NCBI GenBank assembly: GCA_948467675.1
Contig: CAOKFI010000024.1
Span: 1 to 43,315, forward strand
Source of the DNA: an uncultured Porphyromonadaceae bacterium
Lineage (GTDB): Bacteria > Bacteroidota > Bacteroidia > Bacteroidales > Muribaculaceae
Direction: 5' to 3'
Length of the DNA: 43,315 nucleotides
The notes under the pieces were generated by a model. That model made no database searches, had not been told where the DNA came from, and saw nothing but the letters and a program-made list of their open reading frames with translations. Of this stretch, positions 35,936 through 43,315 are shown piece after piece (the stretch's first letter is position 1; each line of letters begins with the position of its first letter). A program made the position numbers and the translations under genes.

Positions 35936-36032
35936 AGAGCGGCAATACCGGCTTATTTTCAGCTTTTATAAGCCTGCGGCGTCAACATTTCGGATAAAAA
36001 AATGTTATAGAAGGTAAAACTATTTACTTGTG

Positions 36033-39000
36033 ATGAGCCGTGCCGTAGGGAAAAAAGTATTGAGATGCACGCTGTGGACTCTGGGTGCCGTTGTTGCCCT
36101 GATCTTCGCAGTGCTGATTGCGCTTTACATACCGGCCGTGCAGAGATGGGGCAAGGATTTAGCCCTGGAGAAAGTCAATGCCACCGGCCCGATGCGCATT
36201 TCGGTAGGTGATCTGCGGCTGCGGTTCCCACTGCACGTGAGCGTCGAGGACGTCACCGTCGAAAACTACCCCGGCGACACAATGGCCACTGTAGCCTCTC
36301 TCAGTGCTTCGGCTCGGCTCCTGCCGCTGCTGCGCGGCGTCATATCCATAGACGGCGCCGACGCTTCAGGAGTACGTTACCGCATGGGCACACCCGACTC
36401 TGTGATGTATCTTACTGCCGATGTGCGCTCGCTGCACGTAGGATCAGCCGCCATGCACCTTGCCGGATGGCTTATCGATGTGGAACGCGCCACTCTCGAC
36501 GGAGGACGCGTGAACCTCGACTTGAACAACGATACCACAGCCACACCTGTCGATACTGCGGCATCGCAGCCGCTGACCATACGTGCCGCACTGCTGGAAT
36601 TGCGTTCGGTACACTACTCCATGACCATGGAGGGAACGATCGACTCGCTCGGAGCAAGAATCGGCCATGCAGTGCTGCGCTACGGCGAAGTGGATATGGC
36701 GACACGTACCATAAACGCGCAGTCGCTATCGGTCGACTCGCTCTACGCAGCCTATATTTACCCTCCTGCCGAGACTGCCGCCGATACTCCTGCTCCGGCT
36801 ACCGCCGAAGCCGCTGCCGATTCGGCGATGTGGACAATACGCGCCGACAGTATTAGACTCGACGGCGGACACGCGCTGTATGCGCTGACCGGTGCCCGCC
36901 CAATGCCCGGACTCGACATGAACTACCTGCAGGCCGACGGAGTAGGCATACTCGTGACCGGTTTCTACAACCGCGGCACATCGATCACAGTACCGCTGCG
37001 GAGACTCCATGCCGTAGAGCGCTCCGGACTGCAGCTCGATGCCGACGGCACATTCATGATGGATACGGCAGGAATGTCGGCCCGCGACTTCAGCATCAAC
37101 ACACTCCATTCATCACTTCATATCGACGCATCGGCGGGAATAACTCCGGCACGCCCATTCGAAACAGCTCCGCTAAGCATCGACGGACGCTTGCAGGTGG
37201 GCATGGCCGATGTGGCGACAGCTTTTCCGGCTCTTGCCCCGATGATACGTCAGCTGCCGCAGCGCACACCGCTGCAGGCCGTGATAAGCGCCGACGGACG
37301 CATGGACTCGCTCGCAATCGACACCGCAAGGATATGGATGCAGCGCGTGTTCGACATGGCCGCCGACGGACGTGTCGTCGACATGACCGACATGAACCGC
37401 ATATCGGGACGGATCGGCTTTCGCGGATCGCTGTCAAACACAGGCTTCATAAAGCAGACACTGTTCGACGCCAGGATGCGCCGCACTGTCGACCTCCCTC
37501 CTCTGAGCCTAAGAGCCGATATTGCCGTGAACCGCGGTACCGTAAGCGGTACGATGCGGGCCGTGACCGGATCCGGCCGCATAGCCCTCGACGGAACATG
37601 GACAGGACGCACCACGTCATATTCAGCAAAATTGCGCGCCGACTCGCTGCCGGTCAAGGCATTCCTCCCGACAATGGGTATCGGTGCGGTGACAGCCCGT
37701 GCCGATATCAAAGGCCACGGACTCGACCCGATGTCACCTCGCACGGCACTCACTGCCGGTATCGCGATCGAGCGGGCTGAATATCTCGGTCATGTATACA
37801 GCGACATAGACCTGACAGCCACCCTCGCCGACGGACGTGCGCGCGCACTGCTAAGCAGCGACAATCCCGCCGCCGATCTCGACATGGCCGTCGACGCCAC
37901 TCTTTCACCGACAGAATACACCTGGGAAGCCGACGGCCGTATCCGCAATCTCGACCTGCGCGCGCTCGGCATGGCCGACACGACAATGAGCGGACACCTC
38001 GATCTGCGGTCATCGGGACGCATGCTTCCTGACGACGGTATCATCGACGCATCGGTCGATATCGACAGCCTGTTCTGGTCCATGCCCGGAACCGATCTCC
38101 ACACAGGACCGGTAAAAGCCCTGTTCGCATCGACCGACAGCAGCGTCAGCGCAACCATAGACAACGCGGGACTCCATGCCTCGTTCAGCTCACCGCAGGG
38201 CCTTGATTCACTTATGACACATCTTGCGGCCACAGGACCGATGATGACCCGTCAGATGGCCGACCGCCGTATCGATGTCGAAGCACTGCAGCGCACACTG
38301 CCCCCCATGCGTCTCGACATGCATGCCAGCGGACCGAGCCTGCTCGCCGATTTCCTCAAAGGATCGGGAATGTCGGTCAACGACATTGCCCTGTCGGCCG
38401 CCAACGACTCCCTGCTGAGCCTTAACGCACGCGCGCTCCGCATAAAATCGGGCGACACAAGAGTAGATACGGTGACTGCCGACATACATCAGAAATCGAA
38501 ATTTCTCATCTACAATCTGGCCATGGGCAACCGCCCAGGCACCATGGATGAGTTCGCAAGCGTAAGAGTGCGGGGCTATGTGGCCGACGACAAGCTGGCT
38601 CTGCTCGCCAGGCAGAACAACATCCAGGGAAAGACCGGCTACAAACTGGGTCTGACAGCATCGGCCGACAGCACAGGCATAAACATCAAGCTGACACCCT
38701 ACAAACCGGTCATAGCCTATAAAGACTGGACCATAAATTCCGACAACTTCATACACCTGGACATAGCCCGCAGGCATTTCGACGCCAATCTCGACATGGC
38801 GGGAGCCGGAAGCCGCGTGCGGCTCTATACCGAGCACTCCGACTCCGTGGCCACACAGGAAGACGTGATACTGAAGATCACGGATCTGCAGCTTGCCGAC
38901 TGGCTTGCCATGTCGCCGTTCGCACCGCCGGTAAAAGGCACGGTAAGCTCCGACATGCGTTTCGGATGGGACGAATCGTCGCTCACGGGATCAGGCACAG

Positions 39001-40793
39001 TATCGCTCGACGATCTCGTATACGGACGTGAACGCGTAGGCTCGTTCGACCTCGGTGTCGGCCTGTCGACCTCGGCGGCAGGAGTGATACGCGCCGACGC
39101 CTCGCTGCTCATCGACTCCGTCAAGGTCATCACCGCATGCGGATCGCTCAACGACTCCACCTCGGCCACCCCGTTCAATCTCGACTTCTCAATGATCCAT
39201 CTGCCACTGCGCATACTCAATCCGTTCCTGCCGGCCGACATGGCCAGACTCAGTGGAATGCTCAACGGCGAGATGGATATAACCGGCGACCTGGCGCATC
39301 CGGTATTCAACGGCTACATCGATTTCGACTCCACAGCGGTGCGCGTACCTATGATGGGCACCGATTTCAGATTCTCCGACAACAAGGTGCCTGTAGTCGA
39401 CAACGTGGTAACGTTCGACAACTACACCATAAAGGCTGTCAATGACAATCCGCTGTACATCAACGGCACCGTAGCCTTCCGCGACATAGCCGCCCCGCAG
39501 ATGGACCTGTTGCTCAAGGCCGACAACATGCAGATCGTCGGCAACAAGCGCGGACGCGGAGCCGACATATACGGCAAAGCGTTCATCAACGCCGATGCGA
39601 CAGTGCGCGGCACCATGGCGCTGATGATAATCGACGCCGACCTGTCGCTGCTGCGCGGCACCAATGTCACATATGTGATGAGCACCGATGCCTCCACAGC
39701 CATAACCTCGCGATCGTCGGGCGATATGGTGCGTTTCGTCAATTTCAGCGACTCGCTGGCGATGGCCGAGGCCGACACAATACAGCCTACCGCCATGGGC
39801 ATGGCTCTCGACGCCACACTCAACATTCAGTCCGGAGCGACCGTCAACGTAGACATATCGACCGACGGCAAAAACAAAGTCCAGCTCAATGGAGAGGGAT
39901 CGCTCAACTATGTGTCGTCGCCGCTGGGCGATACCCGACTCACCGGACGCTATACCATCAACTCCGGATTCGTGCGCTACAGCATGCCGATGATCTCCGA
40001 GATGGTGTTCGATTTCAATCAGGACAGCTACGTGGCATTCAACGGCGACATGCTCAATCCAACGCTGCACGTCAGCGCCGTGGACCAGAAGCGCGCCAAC
40101 GTGACACGCGAAGGACAGAACTCCCGCCTCGTCAACTTCGACATCACACTCACCGTGACAGGCACACTGGAGGATATGAACGTGGCTTTCGACCTCTCCA
40201 CGCGCGATGACATCACCGTACAGAACGAGCTCCAGAGCATGAGCGCCGAACAGCGCGCCAACCAGGCCATGAACATGCTTCTCTACAACGTCTACACAGG
40301 ACCCGGCACCAAGGCCAACGCCAATCTCTCGGGAAATCCGCTGTACTCGTTCCTGACATCGCAGGTCAACACATGGATGGCCAACAACATACGCGGTGTC
40401 GACATATCATTCGGCATTGACCAGTACGACCGCACCTACGGCGGAAGCACATCGACAGCCACGAGCTACAGCTACCGGGTGTCGAAGACCCTGTTCAACG
40501 ACCGGTTCAAGATAATAGTCGGCGGCAACTATTCCACCGACGCCGATGCCGACGAGAATTTCTCGCAGAATCTCATCAACGACATATCGTTCGAATACAT
40601 GCTCAACCGCTCTGGATCGATGGTCATAAAGATATTCCGCCATACCGGCTACGAGAGCATACTCGAAGGCGAAGTCACTCAGACCGGTGTAGGCTTCGTG
40701 TACCGACATAAACTCAGCCGCCTGGCCGATATGTTCCGCTTTCTGCGGCCTAAGGAACAAGCTATAAAACCCACCGACGATGAAAACCAGTAA
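36033..40793 (+). CDS. tamB: Translocation and assembly module protein TamB
   Basis: A 1586-residue inner-membrane-anchored TamB (DUF490/AsmA-like superfamily). Residues ~10-32 (LWTLGAVVALIFAVLIALYI) form the anchor. A very long beta-rich repeat region across the periplasm follows, expected to make a lipid-conducting groove, and the conserved TamB domain occupies the last ~380 residues (MLNPTLHVSAVDQKRANVTR, QNELQSMSAEQRANQAMNML, TQTGVGFVYRHKL). A GTG one codon upstream (36030) is an equal start. The stop lies 14 bp inside the next gene. TamB works with TamA, or TamL in Bacteroidota, in outer-membrane lipid or protein assembly. Confidence 0.94.
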   Translation: MSRAVGKKVLRCTLWTLGAVVALIFAVLIALYIPAVQRWGKDLALEKVNATGPMRISVGDLRLRFPLHVSVEDVTVENYPGDTMATVASLSASARLLPLLRGVISIDGADASGVRYRMGTPDSVMYLTADVRSLHVGSAAMHLAGWLIDVERATLDGGRVNLDLNNDTTATPVDTAASQPLTIRAALLELRSVHYSMTMEGTIDSLGARIGHAVLRYGEVDMATRTINAQSLSVDSLYAAYIYPPAETAADTPAPATAEAAADSAMWTIRADSIRLDGGHALYALTGARPMPGLDMNYLQADGVGILVTGFYNRGTSITVPLRRLHAVERSGLQLDADGTFMMDTAGMSARDFSINTLHSSLHIDASAGITPARPFETAPLSIDGRLQVGMADVATAFPALAPMIRQLPQRTPLQAVISADGRMDSLAIDTARIWMQRVFDMAADGRVVDMTDMNRISGRIGFRGSLSNTGFIKQTLFDARMRRTVDLPPLSLRADIAVNRGTVSGTMRAVTGSGRIALDGTWTGRTTSYSAKLRADSLPVKAFLPTMGIGAVTARADIKGHGLDPMSPRTALTAGIAIERAEYLGHVYSDIDLTATLADGRARALLSSDNPAADLDMAVDATLSPTEYTWEADGRIRNLDLRALGMADTTMSGHLDLRSSGRMLPDDGIIDASVDIDSLFWSMPGTDLHTGPVKALFASTDSSVSATIDNAGLHASFSSPQGLDSLMTHLAATGPMMTRQMADRRIDVEALQRTLPPMRLDMHASGPSLLADFLKGSGMSVNDIALSAANDSLLSLNARALRIKSGDTRVDTVTADIHQKSKFLIYNLAMGNRPGTMDEFASVRVRGYVADDKLALLARQNNIQGKTGYKLGLTASADSTGINIKLTPYKPVIAYKDWTINSDNFIHLDIARRHFDANLDMAGAGSRVRLYTEHSDSVATQEDVILKITDLQLADWLAMSPFAPPVKGTVSSDMRFGWDESSLTGSGTVSLDDLVYGRERVGSFDLGVGLSTSAAGVIRADASLLIDSVKVITACGSLNDSTSATPFNLDFSMIHLPLRILNPFLPADMARLSGMLNGEMDITGDLAHPVFNGYIDFDSTAVRVPMMGTDFRFSDNKVPVVDNVVTFDNYTIKAVNDNPLYINGTVAFRDIAAPQMDLLLKADNMQIVGNKRGRGADIYGKAFINADATVRGTMALMIIDADLSLLRGTNVTYVMSTDASTAITSRSSGDMVRFVNFSDSLAMAEADTIQPTAMGMALDATLNIQSGATVNVDISTDGKNKVQLNGEGSLNYVSSPLGDTRLTGRYTINSGFVRYSMPMISEMVFDFNQDSYVAFNGDMLNPTLHVSAVDQKRANVTREGQNSRLVNFDITLTVTGTLEDMNVAFDLSTRDDITVQNELQSMSAEQRANQAMNMLLYNVYTGPGTKANANLSGNPLYSFLTSQVNTWMANNIRGVDISFGIDQYDRTYGGSTSTATSYSYRVSKTLFNDRFKIIVGGNYSTDADADENFSQNLINDISFEYMLNRSGSMVIKIFRHTGYESILEGEVTQTGVGFVYRHKLSRLADMFRFLRPKEQAIKPTDDENQ

Positions 40794-43074
40794 CCGCTTC
40801 GCCATCACCTTAGCATGCGCAGCAGCCCTGTTGCTGGCATCATGCTCCACCACTCGCCGTCTGCCCGAAGGCGAGCAGCTGTATACCGGAATAAAAAAGG
40901 TCGAGATCACACCTCCGGAAGGCACGAAAGTTCCGTCGGGTGTCGACGATGCCGTGCGCACCGCCGTATTCGTAGCGCCCAACAACTACTGGAAACTCGT
41001 GGGCTGGCACTATCCTTTTCCTCTCGGACTATGGGTATACAACAACTGGCCCAATCCGGACAAGGGACTTAAACACTGGATCTTCGACAAACTGGCGGAA
41101 GAACCTGTACTCGTATCGGATGTACGTCCGGCAGTACGCGCCCGGATGATCGACGAGATTCTCGACAACAACGGCTATTTCCGCGGTTCGGCCACCTACA
41201 CTCTGAATCCGGCCAAAAATCCGCGCAAAGCCTCTGTGACATATACCGTCAACACCGGCCCCGCCTATCTGCTCGACAGCATCATGCTTCTGCCAGATAC
41301 ATGCCATCTGTACCATCTGGTCGACTCGATAGCCTCCCGAAGTTCATATCTGCAGCGGGGACAGCGATACTGCACCGACTCGCTCGCTGCAGAACGCACG
41401 CGCATAGCCAACTCCCTGCGCAACCGCGGCTATTACTTCTTCCGTCCGGAATACATAGAGTATCTGGCCGACTCCGTCGTCAACCCCGGCAGCATAGCAC
41501 TGAAGCTCTCCGTAGCACACAATGTCCCGGCTCCGGCTCTGCGCCGGTACCGCACAGGCAACATCACCACACGCATATACCGCAACACCGGAGGAGGTAC
41601 CCCCGATACGATAATGAGCCGCGGAGGAAGCGCCGTGATACAGATGAAGCCGTCGAGGCTGCGCCCCCAGATCATACCGGAATGCGTCACATTCCGGCAG
41701 GGACGCATATTCTCGTTACGCGACATGAACCGCACGCAGACATACCTGTCGCGGCTCGGCATTTTCAATGCCATAAGCATAAACGTGATCCCCGACACCA
41801 CCGGCACTCGCCACGACCTGCTCGATGTCAATATCGACTGTACGATCGACAAGCCTCTCGAAGCAACGGTCGAGGTCAATGCCTCCTCGAAAAGCAACTC
41901 TTATATAGGTCCTGGAATAAGCCTCGGACTTACGAACCGCAATCTGTTCGGCGGCGGCGAACTACTCTCGGTCAACCTCACAGGCACATACGAATGGCAG
42001 ACCGGACGCGACCGCAAAGGCTCCGTGTTCAACTCCTATGAGGCCGCGCTCACGGCTTCTCTGTCATTCCCCCGGCTGCTCGCTCCAGGATTCATACCCA
42101 GGAGCCGCCGATCGGTCAACTGGACGCGCATCACTCTCAACGCCGACCTGCTCAACCGCCCCCATTACTTCAAGATGGCGCAACTCAATGCCTCGTTCAA
42201 CTACGACTGGCAGGCCACACGTCACGCCACAAGCACATTCACCCCGCTGAAACTCACCTACACCAAACTCATACACACAACCGCCGAGTTCGACTCCATC
42301 ATGGATGCCAACCTCGCCATAGCGCAGAGTTTCCGCAACCAGTTCATACCACAGATGTCGTATACCTACACGTATGACCGCGCCTACGGGTCAAGAAACA
42401 CCCTGAACTGGACATTTACCGTATCCGAGGCCGGCAACCTGTTCTGGAGCATCTGGCGGGCATGCGGGGTAAAGGGCGAGAAGAAACTGTTCGGCATGCC
42501 ATTCTCGCAGTTTGTCAAGGCCTCCACACAGCTCGTCTACGGCCGTCGTCTGGCAGGCGACCACTGGCTCGTGAGCCGTGCGGCAATAGGTGCCGCCCAC
42601 GCCTACGGCAACTCCGCACAGGTGCCGTACAGCGAACAGTTCTGGGTAGGCGGCGCCAACTCCATCAGAGCGTTTACCGTACGCTCCATAGGCCCCGGCA
42701 GCTATCACGCGCCGGAGACCGCCAACGGCTACTTCGACCAGACAGGCACATTCAAGCTCGAACTCAACACCGAATACCGTTTTCCGATATTCGGCCCGCT
42801 CCACGGCGCGCTGTTCATCGACGCCGGCAATGTGTGGCTTCTCCGTCCCGATCCGCAGCGTCCGGGCGGCACGCTCCAGGCCCGTTCGTTCCTGCGCGAC
42901 ATAGCCCTCGGCACCGGCGCCGGACTCCGGTTCGACATAAGCATGCTGGTGATCCGCGCCGACCTCGGCATAGGCATCCACGCCCCGTGGGACACCGGGC
43001 GCCGGGGCTACTACAACATGACCTCATTCGGCAATTCCCTCGCCTTCCACCTTGCCATAGGCTACCCCTTCTAA
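40780..43074 (+). CDS. tamL: Lipoprotein BamA/TamA-family outer-membrane protein (TamL)
   Basis: A 764-residue Omp85-family protein whose signal ends LLASC (Cys22), so it is a lipoprotein, the feature that separates Bacteroidota TamL from proteobacterial TamA. POTRA-type domains fill ~35-350. The C-terminal ~400 residues form the Omp85 beta-barrel, with GGANSIRAFTVRSIGPGSY (the conserved R.F-type lid-lock loop) and a final strand ending in Phe (LAFHLAIGYPF). The overlap with tamB indicates a functional pair. It is followed at once by the palindrome array. Confidence 0.93.
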   Translation: MKTSNRFAITLACAAALLLASCSTTRRLPEGEQLYTGIKKVEITPPEGTKVPSGVDDAVRTAVFVAPNNYWKLVGWHYPFPLGLWVYNNWPNPDKGLKHWIFDKLAEEPVLVSDVRPAVRARMIDEILDNNGYFRGSATYTLNPAKNPRKASVTYTVNTGPAYLLDSIMLLPDTCHLYHLVDSIASRSSYLQRGQRYCTDSLAAERTRIANSLRNRGYYFFRPEYIEYLADSVVNPGSIALKLSVAHNVPAPALRRYRTGNITTRIYRNTGGGTPDTIMSRGGSAVIQMKPSRLRPQIIPECVTFRQGRIFSLRDMNRTQTYLSRLGIFNAISINVIPDTTGTRHDLLDVNIDCTIDKPLEATVEVNASSKSNSYIGPGISLGLTNRNLFGGGELLSVNLTGTYEWQTGRDRKGSVFNSYEAALTASLSFPRLLAPGFIPRSRRSVNWTRITLNADLLNRPHYFKMAQLNASFNYDWQATRHATSTFTPLKLTYTKLIHTTAEFDSIMDANLAIAQSFRNQFIPQMSYTYTYDRAYGSRNTLNWTFTVSEAGNLFWSIWRACGVKGEKKLFGMPFSQFVKASTQLVYGRRLAGDHWLVSRAAIGAAHAYGNSAQVPYSEQFWVGGANSIRAFTVRSIGPGSYHAPETANGYFDQTGTFKLELNTEYRFPIFGPLHGALFIDAGNVWLLRPDPQRPGGTLQARSFLRDIALGTGAGLRFDISMLVIRADLGIGIHAPWDTGRRGYYNMTSFGNSLAFHLAIGYPF

Positions 43075-43088
43075 GGCACCCGGCAGCC

Positions 43089-43315
43089 GCGGGTCGGGGA
43101 CCCGCAGGAAAAAAACCGCGCCGCGGCAGCTGCGGGTCGGAGACCCGCAAGATGTGAAACCCCATGCAGTCATGCATGGGGTAGAATCAGCACCCTCATC
43201 TCCAAGCGCGTCGGAGACGCGCAGGAAAAAAAACGCGCCACGGTAGCTGCGGGTCGGGGACCCGCAAGATGTGAAACCCCATGCAGTCATGCATGGGGTA
43301 GAATCAGCACCCTCA
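43089..43315. repeat. Tandem array of palindromes, 117-bp period, truncated by the window end
   Basis: Two units, offset by exactly 117 bp. Each has a 7-3-7 hairpin (GCGGGTC-GGG-GACCCGC at 43089; GCGCGTC-GGA-GACGCGC at 43206), an A-rich spacer, and a second hairpin of TGCGGGTC / GACCCGCA (43131-43149; 43248-43266). A 24-nt palindrome, ACCCCATGCA-GTCA-TGCATGGGGT (43159-43182; 43276-43299), follows, and then AGAATCAGCACCCTCA. The array begins 15 bp after tamL. Frames through it are periodic and do not look like proteins. Confidence 0.9.

Follow-up and report, generated by a model that had tools for sequence, protein, structure and literature searches.

The systems closest to the repeats described here are the REP palindromes and the Y1 transposases. 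For S. maltophilia, PMC8266576 describes the REP as a palindrome of 8 bp around a loop of 3 nt in which the first G is indispensable, and also reports that stem irregularities are read by the known enzymes. Among the Y1 transposases, subclass 1.2 is presented in PMC6006769 as a group from the Bacteroidetes of about 148 aa with the motif Y---Q--HH and the residues WQ, which is tabulated there without REPs and is generally devoid of terminal IS200 hairpins. As to the hairpins themselves, GNA loops on G-C pairs lead to extraordinarily stable DNA mini-hairpins, according to PMC4686876, which cites papers of 1994 and 1997. The array analysed here probably consists of REP-like elements in which a loop of the C(GNA)G type is kept and the arms change together; the two Y1 enzymes encoded in this genome probably recognise such elements in the form of folded single-stranded DNA and would probably mobilise them.

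The array at the end of the window

The window, i.e. the whole stretch of 43,315 nt that was analysed, corresponds to bases 1-43315 of contig C24 in a genome of 2.58 Mb and 60 contigs. Its right end falls inside a repeat, 16 bases past the palindrome of the second unit. The array comprises two 110-nt copies (43089-43198 and 43206-43315; start-to-start spacing of 117) that are 94% identical. Elsewhere in the genome, the element has the order first hairpin (H1), AAGATGTGAAA or similar, palindrome CCCCATGCA..TGCATGGGG, linker, second hairpin (H2) and AGGAAA. The features at the window end are as follows:

40780..43074, plus strand: Omp85/TamA-like gene, 764 aa; the repeat starts 6 bases past its stop codon, and the gene is not part of the element
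43081..43105, plus strand: H1 module with left linker; 26 nt (43081-43106) recur unchanged at C7:113-138 of this genome
43089-43105, plus strand: hairpin within the H1 module, arms GCGGGTC/GACCCGC, loop GGG
43103..43122, plus strand: tail of an H2 module, fused to the H1 hairpin; its 20 nt match C7:209-228 without a difference
43132..43148, plus strand: H1 hairpin of unit 1, GCGGGTC-GGA-GACCCGC, with the GNA loop on the plus strand
43159..43182, no strand assigned: central palindrome P of unit 1, ACCCCATGCA..TGCATGGGGT, ACCCC..GGGGT
43206..43222, plus strand: H2 hairpin of unit 2, GCGCGTC-GGA-GACGCGC
43249..43265, plus strand: H1 hairpin of unit 2, GCGGGTC-GGG-GACCCGC
43276..43299, no strand assigned: central palindrome P of unit 2, ACCCC..GGGGT

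The two units differ at seven of the 110 positions. Two of these, 43092 (G/C) and 43102 (C/G), make up the paired change from GCGGGTC/GACCCGC to GCGCGTC/GACGCGC that the first-pass annotation had pointed out, and both arms are indeed altered; the remaining five differences lie at 43098, 43116, 43123, 43127 and 43141. This annotation had spoken of compensatory changes and had also considered that hairpins are replaced as modules. Since 43081-43106 corresponds to an H1 module and 43103-43122 to the tail of an H2 module, the two hairpins compared appear to be different modules, namely an H1 hairpin in the place of H2 versus an H2 hairpin, and the paired change is best read as the exchange of a whole hairpin rather than as two compensating point mutations. 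Arm pairing is kept, as had been stated, but the window case appears to be a hairpin swap rather than a compensatory change. The idea of modular replacement, on the other hand, agrees well with the 26-nt and 20-nt identities to separate C7 modules and with the chimeric junction between H1 hairpin and H2 tail, which falls into the shared CGCA (4 nt). The exchange could have come about by slippage or through an enzyme acting at the hairpin foot. The paired variation of arms seen throughout the family (see below) is separate from this swap and goes far beyond the controls.

The copies in the window are probably passive and in part decayed, because two of the four loops read GGG and the arms match neither of the resident transposases exactly: GCGGGTC and GCGCGTC differ from the arms that flank the resident genes (GCGCATC type in one case, GTCGTC and ACAACTT type in the other). 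Contig C7 begins in the same repeat array (L010:1-230) in which C24 ends at 43315, and since both contigs break inside this array, they may be neighbours in the genome. A perfect hairpin with GCGCATC arms and a TGA loop was also seen further upstream on C24 (14326-14342), possibly a chance occurrence inside a gene.

The gene preceding the array is the second of a tandem (36030-43074) in which a TamB-like gene (1587 aa) and the Omp85/TamA-like gene overlap by 14 bases. We surveyed 20 Omp85/TamA orthologs from other genera, a further one being left out as its gene end was missing, and none of them had a perfect C(GNA)G hairpin in the 400 bases that follow the gene (0/20; for two, fewer than 200 bases were present). 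For this reason the array, judged from the sequence, appears to be neither tied to its host gene nor a gene-control element.

The repeat family and the resident transposases

The 227-bp array has 24 matches over eight contigs of its own genome. The pattern SRTCGGAGAYS, to which sites with incomplete arm pairing also conform, was found at 123 sites (68 forward, 55 reverse), compared with 12 for the pattern read backwards as a control. In the stretches fetched from this genome, 100 TCGG[AG]GA cores near a palindrome had Watson-Crick pairs at positions 3 to 7 in 59, 98, 94, 89 and 75 cases, respectively, with a further 30 G.T and one T.G at pair 3; for 40 cores elsewhere the numbers were 11, 10, 15, 13 and 14. 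The alignment of 33 distinct sequences, in which the two innermost pairs are fixed by the search anchor, resulted in a covariation score of 0.401 versus 0.146 for shuffled arms (0/500) and at most 0.115 for slid ones. Cells with a change on both sides numbered 38 versus 14.3 upon shuffling (0/500), and the number of pairs with changes on both sides was not above shuffling in these 33 sequences (5 versus 4.0; 150/500). The first-pass annotation had made its reading dependent on further copies in the genome and on paired arm changes in their alignment, and both were found.

The fetched stretches contain 19 clusters, and 68 of the 93 clustered hairpins lie outside the kept open reading frames of at least 150 aa, with 25 inside frames that may be spurious. 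The trait of canonical REPs to occur in many copies outside genes was observed in this genome only. Long hairpin arrays of mixed orientation, which cross open frames of at least 150 aa, are located at C2:46149-49193 and C7:18858-19295 (L041 and L045).

Two PF01797 matches (Y1, IS200-like) were found in the genome, at C21:7922-8257 and C2:694-1023. Each of these genes sits between inverted H1-P-H2 copies, those at the C21 gene having arms such as GCGCATC. The flanks of the C2 gene are built by this grammar as well, but their arms (GTCGTC and ACAACTT) are unrelated and their palindrome is a different one, CCCCAGGT..ACCTGGGG. This arrangement bears out the early guess that the array is a REP-like element with an IS200-type (RAYT-like) transposase encoded elsewhere. 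It also corresponds to the REPtron trait of a transposase gene placed between inverted repeat copies, which we observed for both resident genes and for 102 of the 132 genes considered below.

In the three proteins tested, PF01797 reached 82.7, 64.2 and 88 bits. All three are matched by the NCBIfam IS200 model, two of them above its cut-off, whereas the RAYT model NF047646 gave 30.9 and 23.5 bits, below its cut-off of 80 bits, with the C2 protein not among the matches listed. An AF2 model (pLDDT of 89.6) was related by Foldseek to the TnpA proteins of ISDra2 and IS608 at 3e-8 to 4e-8 (TM about 0.6) and to the RAYT-REP complex 4er8 at 8.3e-6. Residues H53 and H55 (HuH), Y113, Q117, H120 and H121 show no variation across 36 chosen sequences. 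The domain, the predicted fold, the HuH motif and the putative catalytic tyrosine all point to a TnpA of the IS200/IS605 type (Y1, PF01797). The same protein family and fold would be expected if the repeats were the ends of a classical IS200/IS605 insertion sequence accompanied by passive short derivatives. The hairpins of IS200/IS605 elements, however, lie on one strand at both ends, whereas the present ones are inverted and face inward. In addition, the two resident proteins (147 aa each) are 47% identical to each other, so neither gene is a multicopy insertion sequence here. We therefore consider such an origin to be very improbable and continue with recognition of REP-like hairpins by Y1 enzymes.

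Hairpins around related transposase genes

Of 198 genomes sampled within the family, 96 contained a homolog. Set 1 comprises 73 of the best 76 of at least 150 matches listed (three were skipped), minus L106, which is without [ND]HxH, leaving 72 genes at 70 loci; it represents the better-scoring half of the matches listed, with distant homologs under-sampled. For set 2, the 80 best of 142 confirmed places on named contigs were taken, which left 60 other genes after removal of 20 duplicates; two of its rows are short fragments (L119 and L193). The resulting 132 genes include relatives and own genome together.

Inward-facing C(GNA)G hairpins within 300 bp, with at least five of six pairs formed, were found at 124 of the 132 genes (69/72 in set 1, 55/60 in set 2) and on both sides at 102 (56 and 46). 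Outward-facing ones were seen at 32 genes (18 and 14) and on both sides at only three (3 and 0); eight of the 132 genes had no inward C(GNA)G hairpin. The loops show the same polarity. Among perfect stems of at least 6 bp within 300 bp in set 1, 65 of the 102 upstream triloops were GNA and 9 TNC, compared with 7 GNA and 63 TNC among the 83 downstream; the far flanks (>700 bp) had 5 GNA and 9 TNC in 37 triloops, the chance for either class being 4 in 64. In set 2, GNA made up 53/91 upstream, TNC 79/104 downstream, and either class 11/69 far away, with such a hairpin at 52 of the 60 genes. The loop-closing base was C in 185 of 202 set 1 hairpins (stems of at least 5 bp, expected orientation), and the loops of these 202 GNA hairpins were GGA (98), GAA (66), GTA (21) and GCA (17). 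Set 2 also includes a few loci of Bacteroidales from sediment or fen and of one Rhodohalobacter; hairpins are few at these loci, several of them with a T-A closing pair, and L170 lacks them altogether. Two contigs each carry two equal-scoring transposase genes within about 3 kb (L099, G221:C120; L114, G136:C6).

The motif YxxxQxxHH is present in 70 of 72 proteins of set 1 (median length of 147 aa) and 58 of 60 of set 2. A tryptophan followed by G or A was read in 114 of the 132 and WQ in 3, with three unread. In a quick tree of 54 rows, the YxxxQxxHH proteins, together with two in which the motif is incomplete, are set apart from six others (SH-aLRT of 98), and a group of 41 (support of 88) holds the checked hairpin-bearing rows including the three WQ proteins (L054, L173 and L184), which have some GNA hairpins. 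Of seven WQ proteins outside this group, two of them read by eye, six have loci without a GNA hairpin. The seventh, the Y1 gene of L030 (G034), has hairpins with CAACCGC/CACCGC arms on both sides in a single orientation, unlike the inverted layout. Since YxxxQxxHH is shared but WG or WA prevails over WQ, we place the proteins, by their sequences, near subclass 1.2 and do not file them in it.

The arms differ from enzyme to enzyme, and their pairing is retained. In the expected orientation, 261 of 480 C-GNA-G cores in set 1 and 248 of 358 in set 2, collected without requiring pairing, had at least four of pairs 2 to 6, whereas dealing the 3' arms anew gave 16 and 22 on average and never more than 28 and 36. 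Cores in the opposite orientation reached 28/179 and 18/104, and those in the far flanks 55/888 and 32/801. We counted 141 distinct 5-nt arm sequences. The same 5-nt arm occurred on both sides of the gene in 38 of 52 two-sided genes of set 1 (shuffled mean of 3.3, maximum of 10 in 2000) and in 12 of 30 of set 2 (mean of 2.8, maximum of 9). The proportion of gene pairs with an arm in common rose with protein identity, from 2-5% (identity of 30-60%) through 41% (60-70%) and 70% (70-80%) to 94-98% (above 80%); common descent of the locus also contributes to this sharing between related enzymes.

The spacing of the hairpins varies, the commonest bins being 80-89 nt (22/94) and 40-49 nt (16). A CCCC palindrome between hairpin pairs was seldom found outside the own genome. 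Of 56 spans in set 1, four contained CCCC..GGGG and 32 were devoid of any inverted repeat, as judged by a scan for loops of up to 12 nt, which missed longer-looped palindromes including that of C2. Of hairpin pairs 65-110 nt apart, the gene-proximal member was mismatched in 20/43 (set 1) and 17/24 (set 2), mostly at pair 5 and then at pair 3, and the outer one was perfect in 37/43 and 17/24. As to a common 3' foot or cleavage motif at the hairpins, we saw weak preferences only. Counts of GYCGGAGRC in 60 genomes exceeded the control in many, with and without transposases, and were for this reason not taken as evidence.

Exact matches to four arm patterns were looked for in one common panel of 19 genomes. 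GCGCATC arms with a GNA loop were found in the own genome only, nine times, on C2, C16, C21 and C28. GTCAGCC was confined to G158, TTCGCCC to G118 (half of its six hairpins with AAA loops), and ACATGTC occurred in G074 and G093, in each case on the transposase contig. ACATGTC hairpins were also seen at G158:C8:40912-41037; the fetched G158 transposase has GTCAGCC arms, and there is a second transposase match in G158. GCGCATC arms with loops other than GNA are present in G003, G118 and G132. In G003, where we found no PF01797 match, five such hairpins with the loop GGC/GCC are dispersed over C1, C6 and C29. As the exact-arm copies in G074, G093, G118 and G158 (GTCAGCC) lay on the transposase contig only, dispersal beyond this contig was observed in the own genome only, among the genomes tested with exact arms.

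This confinement of the tested arms in four genomes is what one might expect if the repeats were made by the host through slippage and recombination alone, with the copies at transposase genes being mere hitch-hikers, and the window junction within 4 nt of shared CGCA is also of the kind that slippage would give. Such an origin nevertheless appears unlikely to us, considering that the matches of the array are spread over eight contigs of the own genome and that, at diverged genes, the hairpins are placed inward and loop-specifically on both sides in 102 of 132 cases versus 3 outward, with arms that vary by gene. Placement by the enzymes themselves would account better for these observations.

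The polarity of the loops raises the question which strand, and which molecule, is folded. Among hairpins with one mismatch, G.T and T.G numbered 31 versus 4 for A.C and C.A on the GNA strand in set 1 (79 hairpins; three in opposite orientation) and 36 versus 3 in set 2 (106 hairpins; five opposite), i.e. 67 versus 7 overall; G.A and G.G accounted for 26 and 61 of the single mismatches in the two sets. Because the wobbles lie on the GNA strand, this is the strand kept foldable. Folding energies calculated with ViennaRNA did not separate the strands, GNA and complementary loops being identical within each molecule (DNA or RNA).

Wobbles of this kind would suit RNA, in the form of G.U, as well as DNA. 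One could therefore imagine a role at the RNA level, in which the hairpins would terminate or stabilise the transcript of the upstream gene or regulate this gene, all the more as RNA folding is strong and only 6 bases separate a stop codon from the start of the repeat. The survey of upstream-gene orthologs described above argues against such a role, as do the genomic sites in both orientations. Moreover, the inward orientation on either side of the transposase genes implies that a transcript would show the downstream hairpins with the complementary loop, and no Rfam family reached its cut-off within 42900-43315 of the window (17.4 bits versus 50, 16.5 versus 49.5). All this makes a function in RNA improbable. 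A special case would be a decoy for CsrA, a protein that binds GGA in hairpin loops; the TCGGAGA loop exposes GGA in this genome. However, no CsrA (PF02599) was detected in the genome at an E-value of 0.001, a threshold at which 3 of 14 control genomes were positive, and the relatives have GGA in 98 of 202 GNA hairpins and otherwise GAA, GTA or GCA. We thus see practically no prospect for this variant, which is disfavoured already by the absence of PF02599 at that threshold. Instead, we favour the view that the hairpins act as single-stranded DNA, because GNA mini-hairpins are stable as DNA and the inverted layout implies that the gene's own transcript would carry opposite loops at its two ends.

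Proposed mechanism and comparison with known systems

According to our proposal, the stable GNA mini-hairpin would serve as a common handle, and the arm sequence would be the address read by each enzyme. By analogy to TnpA and RAYT enzymes, the transposase might nick close to the foot of the hairpin while the DNA is single-stranded. Such nicking would copy elements to new places and could also swap hairpins between elements. Of the mobile REP-like element put forward in the first-pass annotation, the REP-like build and the linked Y1 genes are borne out here, and its mobility is likely at most; no insertion, excision or cleavage was seen, the relatives drawn being of other genera. A wider proposal, for which we see about as much to be said as against it, is that the fixed GNA handle and the rewritable stem address define a new class of REP/transposase pairs, Bacteroidota-wide and with dozens of codes, which would fill the place of the missing substrate of the YxxxQxxHH Y1 enzymes.

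In most loci examined, Y1 transposases close to a subclass published without REPs sit between inverted hairpins. The question of what a REP transposase reads thereby becomes directly testable on dozens of natural enzyme/hairpin pairs. Provided that the arms determine specificity, these represent ready-made pairs of single-stranded DNA hairpins and HUH enzymes for tagging and DNA writing.

Phage N4 promoters are a natural use of GNA mini-hairpins; in the open-access literature we found nothing useful on a Muribaculaceae repeat or on the N4 hairpins. Within open-access titles and abstracts, a scope that leaves subscription papers and supplements outside, we also saw neither GNA-loop REPs nor REPs belonging to this protein group described. 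The GNA loop on a C-G closing pair is shared with the DNA mini-hairpins of PMC4686876, which are presented there as chemistry and as an aptamer tool. With the GTAG- and CGTC-tagged REPs (PMC3733652), the repeats have in common short palindrome families with variable stems, some of which are without a known transposase; here, by contrast, a transposase is linked and no unpaired GTAG or CGTC tag is enriched. The 5' foot GT[AG]G of canonical REPs occurred at 25 of 407 hairpins, compared with 29 when reversed and 29.7 when shuffled, and at 8 of 141 within paired elements; CGTC was found at 13 of 407 5' feet (reversed, 10).

Subclass 2.6 of TnpA_Y1, as characterised in PMC6006769, is likewise found in Bacteroidetes and has atypical hairpins beside the gene with copies elsewhere in the genome. 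It is set apart, on the descriptions, by YIH[QN]NP and about 179 aa, compared with YxxxQxxHH and a median of 147 aa here. Subclass 1.2 (PMC6006769) agrees in the motif Y---Q--HH, in the size of about 148 aa and in the occurrence in Bacteroidetes, but in the present proteins WG or WA prevails (WQ in 3/132) and hairpins flank the genes. Finally, the repeats resemble the REP/RAYT systems (TnpAREP), as portrayed in PMC6006769 and PMC8266576, in their short inverted hairpins around a Y1 gene and in the further genomic copies; they differ in that a GNA loop closed by C-G is kept while the arms are free, and in that the proteins are of the YxxxQxxHH type.
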